DNA of 64,000 nt from Nitrosovibrio sp. Nv4 (GTDB lineage Bacteria > Pseudomonadota > Gammaproteobacteria > Burkholderiales > Nitrosomonadaceae), in contig NZ_OCMZ01000001.1 in the NCBI RefSeq assembly GCF_900215485.1, positions 1,178,001 to 1,242,000 of the forward strand, read 5' to 3'. The translations under genes were made by a program, and so were the position numbers. Shown here piece after piece: positions 14,930 through 22,269 of the stretch (position 1 is its first letter; the number at the start of each line of letters is the position of its first letter). The notes below the pieces were generated by a model that ran no database searches, was not told the origin of the DNA, and saw only the letters and a list, made by a program, of their open reading frames with translations.

Positions 14930-15141
14930 AGGTGCTTCGACCGCTTTGCGCGGTCGAGTTAAACGGGAACCAGGTAGGACATCTTCGAACAGTCCTCCGC
15001 AGAGGACTTGGTCGGCGGTTTCTTATGCCTGGGCTGCCCCCGCAACGGTAAGCAGGTGTGGGCGTATCAACAGGCCACTGTGAATTCTCCAGTTCATGGG
15101 AAGGCGATACGTCAAATCCTGCAAGCCCGGATACCGGCCTT
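14930..15141 (+). promoter_or_regulatory. Cobalamin (adenosylcobalamin) riboswitch
   Basis: The expected order of elements is present: a 5' GGTGCT with an adjacent hairpin, TTAAACGGGAA, the highly conserved CTGCCCCCGCAACGGTAA near 15034-15052, GGGAAGGCGATA near 15098, and the B12 box AAGCCCGGATACCGGCCT ending at 15141. Cobalamin binding to such leaders shuts off downstream uptake genes. Here the target is the TonB receptor starting at 15272. Confidence 0.93.
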
Positions 15142-15170
15142 GAATCCATATGGAATTTATCGCGTGGGGC

Positions 15171-15193
15171 GATATCCTGATCGATATCTTTTT
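15171..15193 (+). terminator. Possible expression-platform terminator of the riboswitch
   Basis: GATATC-CTGATC-GATATC forms a 6-bp AT-rich hairpin followed directly by TTTTT, 30 bases after the B12 box and 79 bases before the receptor start. It is a weak stem, so control by ribosome-site occlusion is an alternative. Confidence 0.35.
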
Positions 15194-15271
15194 CGCTCAC
15201 AGAGTCATTCCCCGCGGTATTTCCTTGTTTATCACCTGGGATATGTGCATCCCCAAATACAAGCTGATACC

Positions 15272-17335
15272 GTGAGCCTATTCCGCAAACTTGTTTTGTC
15301 ATTTTTTGCTGTTCCTGTGCCTTCATGGGCCGTTAGCGTCGATGATTCGCCGAAAAGCCAGCTCGAAGAGATCGTTGTTACCGCGACACGCTTTAATCAG
15401 CGTGTGGAGAAACTGCCGATAGGGGTTTCCATTATCAGCGCGGAGCAGATCAAGAACAGTGCCGCATCGACCTTGCCGGAGTTAATACAACAACTGGCCG
15501 GGATACATACCCGCAACGTCGATGGCAGCCCCGATCCGCAGATCGACATGCGCGGATTCGGCATTACCGGCAACCAGAACACGCTTGTTTTGCTTGACGG
15601 GCAACGGATGAACGAAAATGAGTTAGTGGGTATTCGCTGGTCGACAATTCCTCTTGATTCCATTGAGCGCATCGAGGTGCTGCGAAGTAGCGGCGCGGTA
15701 ACCTATGGAGCTGGCGCCACAGGGGGCGTAATCAATATAGTCACGCGGGCCGCCGGGCCTGGTCGCGTGTCGGGCACCGGTGGGCTTTCGTTTGGCAGCT
15801 ATGGCGGAACGGAATTCACCGGGGCATTAAACGCGGCAGGAAGGAATCTTGCGCTGGCACTCACCGGGAATGCGCTGCAGACAGATAATTATCGCGTTAA
15901 CAATTCACTTCATCAAATGAATCTGCAAGGAGATCTGCGCTATCAGTTCACCAATGGCAGGGCATTGCTGAAGTTCGGCGTGGATGATCAAAAACTGGAA
16001 TTACCGGCTACGCGCACGGAAGCACAACTGATATCGGATCGAAAGGGGACCTCAACACCACGAGATTTCACCACTCGCGAGGGAGCATTTGTAACCCTCA
16101 GGGGAGAACGTACCACTGGATTTGGCGATCTTGCCGCAGACCTGTCTTTTCGAGACAACCATCGGACGGCATTATTCGACGACTACAGTATCGATACCTT
16201 CAATTCCAAAACATTTGTCAATTCACGATCCAACGTGTGGTTGTTCAATCCACGGATGAAGCTGCCATTTCAGGCTTTCGGCATCAATCATGAACTGGTG
16301 CTGGGCGCAAATCTGGAATGGTGGGATTATACTGCCAAACGTTTTACCGGAATGGAAACTGTACCAGGCCCGATATCAGCCAACATGTTGCAGACCGATG
16401 TGGCGGCAACGCAGGAGAATCGCGCAGTCTACCTGCAGCATTCCACGACCTTGCCCAAGGGTACGGTCGTCACACTGGGAGGGCGGCTGCAATGGGTGGA
16501 CAACAGAGCGGCTGACCGTTTCAATTCAGCAGCCCATGCCCGTGATCGGCAGAGCCGTATTGTGTATGCGTATGATGCGGGAGTGCGCCAACCGCTGGGA
16601 TCCGCTTTTTCATTCTATGGCAAATTTGGCCGAAGCTTCCGAATAGCCACGGTGGATGAAAACTACAATCAATTCGGCGGGCCGGCGTTCGATTCCATGA
16701 TCAGGATACTTGAGCCGCAAACCGCTCATACCGGCGAAATCGGACTGGATTATCAGAAAGGATCGGTGCGCGGACGCGCAGCGCTTTACCGGATCAATCT
16801 CAACAACGAGATCGGTTTCATGAACGTAGACCCATTCAGGTTCTTTGCCAATACGAATCTCCCTCCTACCCGGCGGCAGGGCGCAGAAATCGAAGGCTCC
16901 TGGGCTGTTACGAATAAAATCGATATATTTGGCAACTATACCTACACCGATGCGCGCTTTCGTGAAGGAAATTTCGGCGGCACGGATATTTCAGGAAACG
17001 TCATTCCACTGGTGCCCCGCCATAGCGCTGCGGCGGGGGGTACGTTCCGTCTTGCACCTGAAACGCGCATCGCGGCAATGATGAATTATGTGGGCGAACA
17101 GGTATTTGATAACGATCAGGCCAACACCGCCACGCGCCGCATGCCGGATTACGTCACAGTGGATATCAAGGTTTCTCATCAGGTAAGGAAGTTGTTGCTG
17201 AGCATGGCGGTAAATAACTTATTTGATGAAAAATACTTTTCATATGCAATCCGCAACGCGGCAGGCACGAGCTTTAACGCACTGCCGGCTCGCGAGCGTA
17301 ATGTCTGGTTCACAATGAAATATCAGTTCAACTGA
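15272..17335 (+). CDS. btuB: BtuB-like TonB-dependent outer-membrane receptor
   Basis: A 22-stranded outer-membrane receptor of 687 residues, predicted to import cobalamin or a corrinoid because of the riboswitch upstream. I choose GTG 15272: it gives a clean signal peptide (MSLFRKLVLSFFAVPVPSWA), while frames further upstream run back into the riboswitch. GTG 15245 is an alternative. The TonB box LEEIVVTATRF is near residue 35, the plug domain runs to about residue 155 (GAVTYGAGATGGVINIVTR), and the barrel ends in a Phe-x-Met-Lys-Tyr-x-Phe-Asn type C-terminus. Specificity for B12 is from regulation, not from binding residues I can identify. Confidence 0.87.
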   Translation: MSLFRKLVLSFFAVPVPSWAVSVDDSPKSQLEEIVVTATRFNQRVEKLPIGVSIISAEQIKNSAASTLPELIQQLAGIHTRNVDGSPDPQIDMRGFGITGNQNTLVLLDGQRMNENELVGIRWSTIPLDSIERIEVLRSSGAVTYGAGATGGVINIVTRAAGPGRVSGTGGLSFGSYGGTEFTGALNAAGRNLALALTGNALQTDNYRVNNSLHQMNLQGDLRYQFTNGRALLKFGVDDQKLELPATRTEAQLISDRKGTSTPRDFTTREGAFVTLRGERTTGFGDLAADLSFRDNHRTALFDDYSIDTFNSKTFVNSRSNVWLFNPRMKLPFQAFGINHELVLGANLEWWDYTAKRFTGMETVPGPISANMLQTDVAATQENRAVYLQHSTTLPKGTVVTLGGRLQWVDNRAADRFNSAAHARDRQSRIVYAYDAGVRQPLGSAFSFYGKFGRSFRIATVDENYNQFGGPAFDSMIRILEPQTAHTGEIGLDYQKGSVRGRAALYRINLNNEIGFMNVDPFRFFANTNLPPTRRQGAEIEGSWAVTNKIDIFGNYTYTDARFREGNFGGTDISGNVIPLVPRHSAAAGGTFRLAPETRIAAMMNYVGEQVFDNDQANTATRRMPDYVTVDIKVSHQVRKLLLSMAVNNLFDEKYFSYAIRNAAGTSFNALPARERNVWFTMKYQFN

Positions 17336-17478: not shown

Positions 17479-19293
17479 ATGCGAACCATCACCAGCCGCC
17501 AGTTATGCCAGCGCGTGATGAGATATATCGCGCCCTATTGGGACGCGCTCATACTTGCACTAACCTGCATGATTGCGATGGCGGCAACAGTGCCGATGCT
17601 GACTGCATTGGTGCAGCCGATGCTGGATGGCGCTATTGCCGGCAAGAATCTGGAATTGATGCAACTGGTTCTGCTGGGAACCGTTGGCTTGTTTGCCGTG
17701 CGCGGCGTAACGGGCCACATCGGCGCCTATGCGATCAGCTGGGTAGGCAATAAAATGGCGGTGGACTTGCGGACGGAGATGTTCGACAAGTTATTGATAT
17801 TGCCTTCATGTTATTACGTCGCTCATCCGAGCGGCAGCCTCGTTTTCACCATCACATCCGGCGCCAGTCTAGTCGCTCGCGCTTTCACCGACCTCGTCAC
17901 CGTGATGGTCAAAGACACGTTTACTGTTCTGGGACTGCTGGGATGGATGCTCTATCTAAACTGGGAATTGTCGCTGCTGACGTTATTGATGGTATCCGTG
18001 ATTCTGCTGATCATGCGGATAGTCACGGAGCGCCTGCATGGGATGGGACTGGAAGTTGGACAAACAGTGGATGGCCTCTCCCGTGCGGTACAGGACTCTG
18101 TCGAGAACCACCTGGTAGTCAAGCTGCACGGCGGTGAGAAGTATGAACATCAACGCATGCGGGAGCAAGCGGACACAGTGTCCCGCTTTGTGATGAAGCG
18201 GATGGCCATAGCGTCTCTCTGCGTTCCTCTGGCGCAGATTGCCACTGCGGCTGCGCTGGCCATCATCATATATGTTTCAGGTCAGCAGGCGTTTGCCAAT
18301 GAGGTGACGGCAGGCGGCTTTGCCTCTCTCACCGCAGCCATGCTGATGCTGGTCGCGCCGGTAAGGCGCATTGCTGGCGCGAGGCAAGTTCTGCAATCCG
18401 GGCTGATAGCTGCGGAAAGCGTATTTTCGCTGCTGGATCAGGAGGCTGAACCGGATAACGGGACGATAATTATTGAGCGTGCACAAGGGGAATTGAGATT
18501 CGAGCAGGTCAGTTTTTGTCGGGATCGGGAAAAGAACATTCACGCTGACCCCGAAGCCACCCCCGAAGCCAATATCGGTTCCTGCGGCGAACCCTGCTCA
18601 GCGTTGCGGGATATCACCCTGACCATACGGCCATACGAGATGGTGGCGCTGGTGGGCTTTAGAGGCAGCGCCGCTGCTCTTGCGAATATGGTGCCGCGTT
18701 TTGCGAACCCGACATCGGGAAAAATTCTACTTGATGGTCATGATCTGAAGAGCCTCAAGTTGGCTAGTCTGCGCGCCAATATTGCCGTGATATCCGCGGA
18801 GACAACGCTATTCAATGACACGATAGCAGCCAACATCGCTTATGGTGCTACGTGTCGCGCAACAGAAGCGAAGATCACCGCTGCTGCACAGGCAGCTCAT
18901 GCATCCGAATTCATCCGGAAAATGCCCGAGGGATTGCAAACGCTGGTAGGGGAGCAAGGCGTAAAACTTACGAGCGGACAGCGGTTGCGTATCGTCATTG
19001 CTCGAGTATTGCTGAAGAATCCACCTATCCTCGTTCTGGATGAGGCGTACGGACCGATGGATTACGAGTCTGTTCATCATGTGAACGCTGCATTGGACAC
19101 CCTCATGCAAGGGCGCACGTCGCTTGTTATCGCCAACAGTTTATCCACCCTGGAAAAAGCAGATCGCATCGTTCTGCTGGACAAAGGCAGGGTCATTGGA
19201 GTCGGCAGCCATCAGGAACTGCTGGCAAGAGGCGGCGCTTACACCAGCCTTGCCCGGACTTTCCTGAACCAGAACCACGTCGATGGAGGATAG
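17479..19293 (+). CDS. MsbA-like ABC exporter with degenerate ATPase motifs
   Basis: A full-length 604-residue half-transporter, colinear with MsbA: six membrane segments in residues 15-300, then a nucleotide-binding domain from about 340. MsbA flips lipid A across the inner membrane. Membrane-domain landmarks such as AYAISWVGNKM and LNWELSLLTLL, and NBD landmarks such as LFNDTIAANIAYG, are intact, but catalytic residues are not. Walker A is GFRGSAAAL (393-401), lacking the Lys and Ser/Thr; the Q-loop Gln is Ala440; the signature is LTSGQ (497-501); the H-loop His is Asn553; and the A-loop Tyr is missing. Walker B Asp521 and Glu522 remain. An extra polar stretch (residues 350-373) precedes Walker A. 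The frame is unbroken, so this is not a simple pseudogene. It lies 143 bases after the BtuB-like gene. Substrate and activity are unknown. Confidence 0.85.
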   Translation: MRTITSRQLCQRVMRYIAPYWDALILALTCMIAMAATVPMLTALVQPMLDGAIAGKNLELMQLVLLGTVGLFAVRGVTGHIGAYAISWVGNKMAVDLRTEMFDKLLILPSCYYVAHPSGSLVFTITSGASLVARAFTDLVTVMVKDTFTVLGLLGWMLYLNWELSLLTLLMVSVILLIMRIVTERLHGMGLEVGQTVDGLSRAVQDSVENHLVVKLHGGEKYEHQRMREQADTVSRFVMKRMAIASLCVPLAQIATAAALAIIIYVSGQQAFANEVTAGGFASLTAAMLMLVAPVRRIAGARQVLQSGLIAAESVFSLLDQEAEPDNGTIIIERAQGELRFEQVSFCRDREKNIHADPEATPEANIGSCGEPCSALRDITLTIRPYEMVALVGFRGSAAALANMVPRFANPTSGKILLDGHDLKSLKLASLRANIAVISAETTLFNDTIAANIAYGATCRATEAKITAAAQAAHASEFIRKMPEGLQTLVGEQGVKLTSGQRLRIVIARVLLKNPPILVLDEAYGPMDYESVHHVNAALDTLMQGRTSLVIANSLSTLEKADRIVLLDKGRVIGVGSHQELLARGGAYTSLARTFLNQNHVDGG

Positions 19294-19328: not shown

Positions 19329-21275
19329 TCAATGCATTGATTCCCGATTCGAGTATTCCGGCACCCATCTTGCCAAATCCTGTTTTACTTCCTCATCGCT
19401 TAGTACAGGATGCTCGCTCAGCCACGCCAGCAGTTCCGCCAGCCATTCCCTGTCGATCGGACGGGCCTGGGCGATGCGTAATTTAGGGTGAGGTGTAGGT
19501 AAAGTGCTTTCATCATCCGCCAATAATTCTTCGTAGAGTTTCTCCCCGGGCCGCAACCCATTGTAGACAATTTGAATATCATCCTCACTCAGGCCGGAGA
19601 GCCGGATCAAATCCCTGGCAAGGTCGGCTATTTTCACGGGCTCACCCATATCCAGTACAAAAATTTCCCCAGCGCCGTTTTTTCCTCCCATCAACCCTGC
19701 CTGGAGAACCAGCTGTGCAGCCTCAGGTATCGACATGAAATAGCGCGTGATTTCGGAATGAGTGACGGTAATCGGGCCGCCCTTTTCGATCTGCTCGCGG
19801 AATTTGGGAATTACGCTGCCCGCGCTGCCCAGCACGTTGCCGAAGCGAACCATGACAAAACCTGGCCGCTGCATTCTGCAACTCAAATCGTCCGCTTGCT
19901 GGAAAGAAATCGATTGTTGTAGCGATTGACACACCATCTCTGCCAGCCGCTTGCTTGCCCCCATGACATTTGTGGGATTTACCGCTTTATCCGTCGAGAT
20001 CATTACAAATCTTTCCACGCCATGCGTAATCGCGGCATGTGCAAGGGCGTAAGTTCCAAAAACATTGTTCATTACGGCTTGCCAGGCGTTTTCGTGCTCC
20101 ATGAGCGGCACATGCTTGTAAGCGGCTGCATGAAATACGACCGCCGGCCGATATTGTGAGAATACTTGAGCCAAACGTGCCTGATCTTTGACATCCCCTA
20201 TCGTGAACGACATCGGCATATCCGGGAATTTGACCTGAAATTCCTGTTCGATGTTGTAGAGGGCAAATTCGTTTAATTCGAACAGCACCAGCCGCCCCGG
20301 GCCGAATTTGGCAATCTGGCGGCATAACTCGGATCCGATTGAACCGCCAGCGCCAGTAACCAGAACGGTTTTTCCTGTTAGCAGGTCATGCAAGCCTTCG
20401 TTATCCAGTACCACGGGATCTCGACCCAGCAGATCCTCCGGTTCGACAGTGCGAATTTGCGATACCGTAATTTTGCCGCTGATCAAGTCGTCGTAAGAGG
20501 GAACGGTCAAGGCCTTTATTCCGGCGGCGGCACACATCTGCAGCGCCCGCCGGCGGTCACGGAGAAGGCGGTCAGGCCGCCGCCGGTCGAGTTGAGAACG
20601 GTAGGCTTTCCGGCGATCCGAGGCGGAAGAGGTCATGGCGATAATGGCATGGGCAACGCCGGTTTCTTTCGCTATAACGGGCAATTCATTGATTCTGCCC
20701 AATACTTTAAATCCGTGCAGCATCAGACCAGTTTTTGCAGGATCATCATCCAATAATCCCACCACCTGCCATTGCACGCTGCGTGCCAGTTCTTTCACTA
20801 GCCCGACTGCGGCGTCACCCGCGCCGAGCACCAGGACGAGATTGCGTTCGGGCTTCTTTTGTCCATAGAGTCGATGTTCCTTCCATAAACGATAAGCGAG
20901 ACGGCTGCCACCCATGATAAACAGCAGCAGGATGGGGCCCAGCAGCAAAACGGTTCTCGGTACACCTGTATGTATTTCCAACATGAATAATGCCAGCGGC
21001 ACTGCGGCGGCCGATGCCAGTATCGCAAACAGGATGCGCCGTAAATCGGGCAGGCTCGCATAGTGCCAAAGTCCGCGATACAGGCCGAACCATAAAAAAG
21101 CCACCGCATGCAACGTAACCGCCCATGGCAGAATTTCTTTCAATGACCCAAGGTACAATGGCGGTATTTCGAAATTGAAACGAAACGAATAAGCCAGCCA
21201 CCACGCGATGATCGCGGCGGCCAGGTCATGAACGAACGCGATTACCGCGCGTATGTTGGGTTTATATACAGGCAT
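19329..21275 (-). CDS. FlaA1/WbpM/CapD-type UDP-sugar 4,6-dehydratase, membrane-anchored
   Basis: A 648-residue nucleoside-diphosphate-sugar epimerase/dehydratase for polysaccharide or glycan building blocks. I choose ATG 21275, one base after the preceding stop, because the protein then starts just before its first membrane helix. Four helices fill residues 10-125, a CoA-binding-like Rossmann domain follows (LVLGAGDAAVGL near 149), and the catalytic SDR domain has TGAGGSIGSE at 307-316 and STDKAVNPTNVMGASKR, where Met replaces the usual SDR Tyr as in WbpM. An Arg-rich stretch at about residues 219-243 looks like an insertion. With the preceding transferase gene it resembles the WbpL/WbpM pair that starts O-antigen or exopolysaccharide synthesis. 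Confidence 0.92.
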   Translation of the reverse strand: MPVYKPNIRAVIAFVHDLAAAIIAWWLAYSFRFNFEIPPLYLGSLKEILPWAVTLHAVAFLWFGLYRGLWHYASLPDLRRILFAILASAAAVPLALFMLEIHTGVPRTVLLLGPILLLFIMGGSRLAYRLWKEHRLYGQKKPERNLVLVLGAGDAAVGLVKELARSVQWQVVGLLDDDPAKTGLMLHGFKVLGRINELPVIAKETGVAHAIIAMTSSASDRRKAYRSQLDRRRPDRLLRDRRRALQMCAAAGIKALTVPSYDDLISGKITVSQIRTVEPEDLLGRDPVVLDNEGLHDLLTGKTVLVTGAGGSIGSELCRQIAKFGPGRLVLFELNEFALYNIEQEFQVKFPDMPMSFTIGDVKDQARLAQVFSQYRPAVVFHAAAYKHVPLMEHENAWQAVMNNVFGTYALAHAAITHGVERFVMISTDKAVNPTNVMGASKRLAEMVCQSLQQSISFQQADDLSCRMQRPGFVMVRFGNVLGSAGSVIPKFREQIEKGGPITVTHSEITRYFMSIPEAAQLVLQAGLMGGKNGAGEIFVLDMGEPVKIADLARDLIRLSGLSEDDIQIVYNGLRPGEKLYEELLADDESTLPTPHPKLRIAQARPIDREWLAELLAWLSEHPVLSDEEVKQDLARWVPEYSNRESMH

Positions 21276-21276
21276 G

Positions 21277-22269
21277 TTATGGATTGCCGGAATGGCGCCT
21301 CCAATAGCGGTCAAAGACCCACATCATAAGTAAATAAATTCCACCCCATGCGATACCGACTCCAAACTGAACTGCACTATGCTGCCGCATTGCCCATATA
21401 GCGCTCGTGCTCGCGGCCAACATGAGAAGATAACTGACCAGAGCCGTATTGCGATGACCAAAACCGCTTTGCACCATGCGCTGGTAGTAATGCTCGCGGT
21501 GCGCCTGCCACACTTTCTCCCCGCGCAGGCCGCGCCGTGCGAGGGTAACAGAGGCATCGGCAATAAACGGGGAAAATACGAGTAGTGGCAGCCACAGCGG
21601 CCAAAAGCCATTTGTCCAGCCCATTATGCCCATTGTCGCAGCCAGGAATCCCAGCGGGATTGCACCCGCATCTCCCATGAAAATACGTGCGGGATGAAAA
21701 TTGAACAACAAAAAAGCAGCGGCGGCCGCGGCGATGCAGAAACTCATAAGAGCGAACGGCTCATTCCCGGCTAACCATGCACTCACCCCATAGCAACTGA
21801 AACCGATCAGAGTCATACCGCCTGCCAGGCCGTCTGAACCGTCCATGAAGTTATAAAGATTGAGCATCCAGGTAATCGCGACCGTGGTTACGGCCAGGAC
21901 CATCCAGCCATGGGTATCGGACAGCGCCGTTACTGAGAACCAGACAGCAACCGCTCCATGGAGCAGTAATCTGGCCGAGACCGGCAATCCGAAAATATCA
22001 TCGGCGAATGATATTGCTACCAACAGGGTAACGCTTGTCCATATAAACAATGGCAACGCCTCGGGGAGAAATGCCCATGAGGCGAGTATTCCCGCCATCA
22101 AACCCAACCCTCCGGTTCGAGGAACAGCTTTGCTATGAAGGGAACGAGGATTGGGATGGTCCAGCACCTTGAGGACGTTGCCCTTGATCAGATACCAGAT
22201 CAAGCCGAGGGCTACCGTAAACGCAATGAACGGTGCTATGACAATTGAAAACGGCATGCCGGCATTCAT
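21277..22269 (-). CDS. Glycosyltransferase family 4 sugar-phosphate transferase (WecA/WbpL/MraY superfamily)
   Basis: A 330-residue polytopic enzyme that transfers a sugar 1-phosphate from a UDP-sugar to undecaprenyl phosphate on the cytoplasmic face of the inner membrane. About ten helices are visible. Family motifs include DHPNPRSLHSKAVPRTGGLG (37-56), NLYNFMDGSDGLAGG with the Mg-binding Asp residues, and FHPARIFMGDAGAIPLGF. The final His-rich loop carries REHYYQRMVQSGFGHRNTALV, as in WbpL. It overlaps or abuts the dehydratase gene downstream and is almost certainly co-transcribed. The exact sugar is unknown. Confidence 0.92.
   Translation of the reverse strand: MNAGMPFSIVIAPFIAFTVALGLIWYLIKGNVLKVLDHPNPRSLHSKAVPRTGGLGLMAGILASWAFLPEALPLFIWTSVTLLVAISFADDIFGLPVSARLLLHGAVAVWFSVTALSDTHGWMVLAVTTVAITWMLNLYNFMDGSDGLAGGMTLIGFSCYGVSAWLAGNEPFALMSFCIAAAAAAFLLFNFHPARIFMGDAGAIPLGFLAATMGIMGWTNGFWPLWLPLLVFSPFIADASVTLARRGLRGEKVWQAHREHYYQRMVQSGFGHRNTALVSYLLMLAASTSAIWAMRQHSAVQFGVGIAWGGIYLLMMWVFDRYWRRHSGNP

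Follow-up and report, generated by a model that had tools for sequence, protein, structure and literature searches.

Why does an ABC exporter gene keep a full-length open frame when nearly every residue of its ATPase site has been replaced? The question is posed by a gene in the window, that is, in the whole stretch of 64,000 nucleotides of Nitrosovibrio sp. Nv4 DNA that was analysed. The original prediction described an MsbA-like exporter with an intact frame of 604 residues, and this was correct: the start ATG is at 17479, the stop codon ends at 19293 and the frame between them is open. The features of the gene and of its neighbours are listed below (coordinates in the window, strand, description; the basis of the assignment is in parentheses).

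15008..17335, + strand: TonB-dependent receptor, upstream (gene clusters, domain)
17479..19293, + strand: MsbA-derived half-transporter with destroyed ATPase site (intact 604 aa frame; profile, Pfam, tree, fold)
17479..18468, + strand: transmembrane domain, approximately residues 1-330 (alignment to E. coli MsbA)
18469..19290, + strand: nucleotide-binding domain, NBD (high-confidence fold prediction for most blocks)
18526..18594, + strand: linker from the first NBD strand to Walker A, residues 350-372, exceeding that of E. coli MsbA in length (modelled with low confidence)
18655..18681, + strand: former Walker A, GFRGSAAAL (393-401), without the Lys and without Ser/Thr after it (alignment)
18796..18798, + strand: former Q-loop Gln, now Ala440 (alignment)
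18826..18846, + strand: ANIAYG stretch, residues 450-456, one of the parts that the family keeps best (column conservation)
18937..18942, + strand: Gln487-Thr488 (column conservation)
18967..18981, + strand: former signature, now LTSGQ, residues 497-501 (alignment)
19039..19044, + strand: Walker B Asp521 and Glu522, retained (alignment)
19051..19062, + strand: former D-loop SALD, now GPMD (alignment)
19135..19137, + strand: former H-loop His, now Asn553 (alignment)
19329..21314, - strand: CapD/WbpM-like nucleotide-sugar dehydratase/epimerase, Polysacc_synt_2 (gene clusters, domain)
21277..22269, - strand: WecA-like polyprenyl-phosphate sugar-1-phosphate transferase, Glycos_transf_4 (gene clusters, domain)

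The motif losses that had been claimed (A-loop Tyr, Walker A, Q-loop, signature and H-loop) were found at the positions claimed, and Walker B does remain. The P-loop is, in addition, one residue shorter than in intact MsbA. The protein does not have the complete set of ATPase motifs that belongs to an MsbA. The best NCBIfam model for it was MsbA (TIGR02203), with a score of 560.2 bits, below the cut-off of 602; two outgroup proteins (L036 and L034) scored 783.6 and 802.6 bits. Pfam recognized ABC_membrane and ABC_tran. The predicted structure had the MsbA fold (pLDDT 78.5, pTM 0.73; pLDDT approximately 75-95 in most blocks beyond residue 372), and its best PDB matches were MsbA, as were the nearest solved structures by sequence. 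The model thus has the type IV exporter fold, with the membrane domain fused to the NBD, that characterizes MsbA. In a tree of 71 proteins, made by a quick search and with long branches flagged by the program, the 53 rows from the family formed one clade (SH-aLRT 100) nested in the intact MsbA proteins of the order, and four other exporters of the Nv4 genome fell outside MsbA. The Nv4 gene is an MsbA orthologue. It is present in a single copy, and a search for a second, intact msbA in the Nv4 genome gave no match above the cut-off of the MsbA model.

Orthologues sharing the motif loss were sought in the family Nitrosomonadaceae, whose genera are designated g1 (Nitrosospira), g2 (Nitrosovibrio), g3 (presumably Nitrosomonas) and g20. 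All 22 other genomes of the own genus that were searched contained an orthologue, each with a damaged ATP site, and a profile built from 30 such proteins detected a homologue in 114 of 125 family genomes. The remaining 11, several of them nearly complete, had no match at the profile threshold, and the protein is therefore dispensable. Genes from 112 of the 114 genomes were aligned, leaving out G045, where a contig end cuts the gene, and G130 (copy L204). The alignment also held 84 rows from outside the family. An uninterrupted in-frame match was obtained for 72 of the 76 outside loci L209-L284, of which two, L245 and L270, belong to the family and were dropped; the other 14 of the 84 rows are order-level rows, L034 and L218 are the same gene, and the motifs played no part in the choice. 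The MsbA rows of L239 and L244 rank among environmental betaproteobacteria, and their titles (Bordetella parapertussis metagenome bins) look mislabelled.

None of the 112 family rows keeps all six core residues (K382, Ser/Thr383, Q424, G483, E506 and H537 in E. coli numbering), as opposed to 83 of the 84 outside rows. When 12 ATP-site residues were scored, the same number of outside rows kept all 12 and the remaining one kept 10; family rows kept between 1 and 10, most often 3. Residues kept in the 112 family rows were, again in E. coli numbering where a number is given, the A-loop Tyr in 3, Walker A G379 in 8, G381 in 5, K382 in 68 and Ser/Thr383 in 21, Q424 in 13, signature G483 in 11 and G484 in 18, the Walker B Asp in 97 and Glu in 93, the D-loop Asp in 50 and the H-loop His in 10. 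Retention of the Walker A Lys is mostly a feature of g3 (54 of 76 g3 rows). Given what these relatives keep of Walker A Lys and of Walker B, nucleotide binding is possible in them. On a tree made from the membrane-domain columns each ATP-site residue required 4 to 14 changes, indicating that the set of lost residues differs from lineage to lineage. L019 (G019), the family member with the least erosion, keeps 10 of the 12 residues and scores 610.2 bits, just over the cut-off.

Orthologues with intact Walker A and H-loop, named in the original prediction as the sign of an artefact or a recent mutation, exist outside the family and were not found inside it. Both explanations can be ruled out, as the erosion is common to the 112 aligned rows and to L204, the copy in the 113th genome, which was read by eye. 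It was also ruled out that ABC exporters are eroding throughout these genomes: the 8 other exporters read in 7 family genomes all keep Walker A, signature and H-loop, so the erosion is specific to the MsbA orthologue. With an intact outgroup protein as query, no match above 55% identity was present among the matches listed for the 125 genomes; the full-length matches of at least 42% identity that were compared were, among those listed and with the weaker exporters typed in part, all at degenerate loci. Plasmid matches were, among those listed, all below 60% identity and nothing was concluded from them. A literature search (MsbA and lipid A in these bacteria; pseudoenzyme ABC flippases), conducted mostly outside the subscription journals, brought up no report on the protein.

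All 112 aligned family rows have an uninterrupted frame, two of them running off contig ends. To this came the evidence of dN/dS. Of 24 close pairs taken, one had no synonymous change and hence no ratio; the other 23 gave values of 0.14-0.34 with a median of 0.23, the membrane domain and the NBD being about equal. The 95% bootstrap ranges calculated for six pairs lay between 0.12 and 0.43. A dN/dS near 1, which had been put forward as the mark of a decaying gene, was thus not observed. In a simulation of free drift approximately 6 to 11 stop codons were expected at the divergence of the nearest pair; none was present. Pairs of intact MsbA genes had a median dN/dS of 0.08 (range 0.03 to 0.24), a range whose upper end overlaps that of the degenerate genes and which includes many pairs with high dS and sequences shared between pairs. 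For the neighbouring genes, with nine pairs each, the median was 0.066 (CapD-like) and 0.181 (WecA-like); the degenerate msbA is higher than the former and close to the latter. The degenerate msbA is under purifying selection, with a constraint about three times looser than that on working MsbA. Open frames and low dN/dS support the suggestion that the gene is selected for a non-ATPase role.

To see which parts of the protein are kept, columns conserved to at least 95% in the 84 outside rows were compared, and retention was averaged over the 112 family rows. Over 48 membrane-domain columns mean retention was 0.52; the NBD gave 0.62 away from the ATP site (77 columns) and 0.35 within it (19 columns). 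The difference between the ATP site and the rest of the NBD was significant when columns were taken as independent (Mann-Whitney p = 0.0003). The membrane domain, which the original prediction called well conserved, is present, but it is kept no better than the NBD outside the ATP site. The best-kept stretch is in the NBD, approximately residues 401-520, and includes ANIAYG and the GLQT-VGE region, where Gln487 occurs in 99% of family rows versus 26% of outside rows. This is the helical part, by which the NBD of ABC exporters docks on the coupling helices.

The residues contacting lipid A were taken from the accessible parts of PMC10945598 and PMC8660845, and R190 was added as a presumed neighbour. 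At the exterior site R190 fell from 82 of 84 outside rows to 7 of 112 family rows and R238 from 83 to 17; R188 is kept in 32 family rows. The acidic residue at 41 is kept in 10 family rows (8 in g2, 2 in g20). R78 and the acid at 149 are kept in 89 and 105 of the 112 family rows. The transmembrane domain of the Nv4 protein keeps the E. coli equivalents R78 (R75), R148 (K145), E149 (D146) and K299 (R296), and has no equivalents of R190, R238 and the acidic residue at D41. Judged from these substitutions, the exterior lipid A site is largely lost in the family.

The probable cause, that the family does not synthesize lipid A, lay beyond the reach of the original prediction. LpxC and LpxB were each detected in 0 of 125 family genomes by searches that were positive in E. 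coli and three other controls, so that a host making lipid A, as expected for an MsbA, was not found by these two enzymes. Among 150 genomes from the order (Burkholderiales), 143 had LpxC, and the seven misses were five Nitrosomonadaceae and two genomes of another family, f40. The two LpxC-less f40 genomes (G163 and G206) had no MsbA, only a lone NBD-sized frame. In f40 msbA went; in Nitrosomonadaceae it stayed. The absence of LpxC and LpxB agrees with a 2010 survey, the accessible part of which lists lpxK alone for N. europaea and lpxA alone for N. multiformis (PMC3087551). From their lack of LpxC and LpxB, Nitrosomonadaceae seem to make no lipid A; the only other lpx gene searched was LpxK.

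LpxK was found in 82 of 125 family genomes, all of them g3. In all 24 g3 copies read (loci L285-L288 and L294-L313), which were compared with E. coli and one solved structure only, LpxK is retained without the rest of the pathway and its P-loop is eroded: the first Gly is replaced by Asp in each, and the DDG motif is kept in 8. The g3 LpxK thus resembles the degenerate MsbA as a lipid A protein that outlived its pathway with a damaged P-loop, but it is a kinase and present only in g3. In L285-L288 it carries an extra C-terminal CPLC...C stretch which, by reading, looks like a Trm112 domain. An LpxK control was sought at the loci flanking msbA and none was found there. LptF/LptG were present in 121 of 125 family genomes (e.g. 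G000:C3:970548-971576). Since they are kept without LpxC and LpxB, the Lpt machine may have a cargo that is not lipid A.

The surroundings of the gene were compared at 40 family loci. The CapD-like cluster lies downstream of the msbA-like gene in 33 of them, as the next called frame in 27, and is absent from the stretch fetched in 7. The TonB-receptor cluster is also upstream in g1 and g20 loci and in L049, an intact outgroup locus from the order. At g3 loci the other side is usually occupied by genes that, from reading of the sequences, are RmlA- and RmlC-like.

Several explanations of a conserved exporter without an ATP site can be weighed against these data. If the protein were a functionless relic still drifting towards loss, its dN/dS, about threefold over that of intact MsbA, the 11 of 125 family genomes without a match and the two f40 genomes left with a lone NBD-sized frame would be understandable. 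However, slow decay does not agree with 112 open frames (two cut by contig ends), with dN/dS values far below 1 and bootstrap ranges under 0.45, with the absence of the 6 to 11 stop codons expected from the simulation, or with a Gln487 that is far more constant inside the family than outside, and we regard it as unlikely. An intact exporter encoded elsewhere in the genome might instead supply ATP hydrolysis to a heterodimer. Degenerate-site heterodimers are well known, as the accessible part of PMC7756269 describes, and the Nv4 genome does have other exporters with intact motifs. But no further ABC-exporter-like gene clustered with MsbA in 46 loci, so an adjacent partner for the heterodimer offered in the original prediction was not found, and the commonest alternative exporter observed was a cyanophycin-associated one. 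In most known degenerate partners, moreover, it is the catalytic Glu that is missing, the residue retained in the Nv4 protein. Each ATP site is made of the Walker A of one subunit and the signature of the other; with both motifs lost, both composite sites of any heterodimer would be damaged. This arrangement appears quite improbable. One such exporter of the Nv4 genome (C2), L199:7613-10129, matches the cyanophycin-associated ABC model with 1221 bits and adjoins frames of 800 and 874 aa, which by position and family name only are probably cyanophycin synthetases.

Residual ATP binding or slow hydrolysis with unusual residues could be argued from the Walker B of the Nv4 protein and from the Walker A Lys of 68 of the 112 relatives, mostly g3. 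Against it stand the near-complete loss of the A-loop Tyr, G379, G381, Q-loop Gln and H-loop His in the family, the missing Lys and shortened P-loop of the Nv4 protein, and the finding, in the accessible part of PMC8660845, that E. coli MsbA without K382 failed to rescue growth; we consider residual activity very doubtful. Lastly, another exporter could have replaced MsbA for a lipid A-like molecule, the old MsbA being merely tolerated. The presence of LptF/LptG in 121 of 125 genomes, hence a possible persistence of some glycolipid export, and of intact-motif exporters with 34-40% identity to MsbA, also in genomes without the degenerate form (G127), would fit. None of the typed exporters, however, passes the MsbA cut-off (none in the Nv4 genome; 427 versus 602 bits), and replacement would not explain why the degenerate protein is under purifying selection; we hold it to be highly improbable. 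The loci L193-L196 (G127, G072, G054 and G056) encode an intact-motif exporter 36-40% identical to MsbA that could be such a replacement; in these genomes the degenerate MsbA is weak or undetected.

The Nv4 protein was also compared with known systems. With MsbA of E. coli and of order relatives it shares homology over the whole length, fold, orthology and part of the interior-cavity residues (R78, acidic 149); unlike them it has lost the ATP-site residues and most exterior lipid-A-site residues, its TIGR02203 score of 560.2 bits is under the curated cut-off of 602, and its host family has neither LpxC nor LpxB. Among ABC exporters a single degenerate site is common. The degenerate-site heterodimers TM287/288, TmrAB and MsRv1273c/72c retain Walker A together with one complete ATP site and are encoded as gene pairs. 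They resemble the Nv4 protein in having an off-consensus NBD kept by selection, but the latter is one subunit with both site halves lost and no adjacent partner. The closest parallels in the laboratory are the ATPase-deficient MsbA-deltaK382 and MsbA-MD, which has no NBD, both described in the accessible part of PMC8660845: each has a membrane domain without a working ATPase. These are man-made, whereas the natural protein keeps its NBD with the ATP site erased. According to the same text neither variant rescued lipid A transport in E. coli, and MsbA-MD is described as active in drug transport; a role for MsbA without ATP is therefore conceivable.

The explanation that we prefer, and think probable, is that MsbA, orphaned by the loss of lipid A, lost its ATPase along with residues of the exterior lipid A site and persists as a membrane protein without ATPase activity, in most cases encoded close to genes for polysaccharide initiation. 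In family genomes without lipid A synthesis the substrate of MsbA would be gone, and ATP-driven flipping of lipid A would no longer be needed. Erosion of the ATPase motifs and of the exterior residues that bind lipid A then proceeded differently by lineage, likely because lipid A synthesis is absent; lipid A loss and ATPase loss are correlated in one family, with one contrast family (f40). What was retained would be a folded membrane protein, presumably without productive ATP binding or hydrolysis. As the best-kept surface of the NBD is its helical part, the NBD probably still forms a unit with the membrane domain, moving or resting together with it, with the ATP sandwich gone. The most likely work of such a protein would be the ATP-independent assembly or movement of a lipid-linked envelope glycan or glycolipid, as a scaffold or a passive lipid mover. 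An envelope role is suggested only by the neighbourhood of nucleotide-sugar and polyprenyl-phosphate sugar transferase genes, and we hold the scaffold or passive mover to be a minority choice within the preferred explanation. That MsbA became a natural ATP-independent transporter or scaffold for an envelope glycolipid or lipid-linked glycan other than lipid A, possibly the cargo of the Lpt machine, is a tentative proposal.

An exporter that throughout a family has lost its ATP site yet is under purifying selection would offer a natural experiment on whether an exporter fold is able to function without using ATP. It may also be a visible trace of Gram-negative life without lipid A, in which LpxC and LpxB are gone, the nucleotide sites of MsbA and of g3 LpxK are eroded and LptF/LptG are kept. 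The finding would make testable a long-standing question, what covers the outer membrane of these ammonia oxidisers and by which route it gets there.
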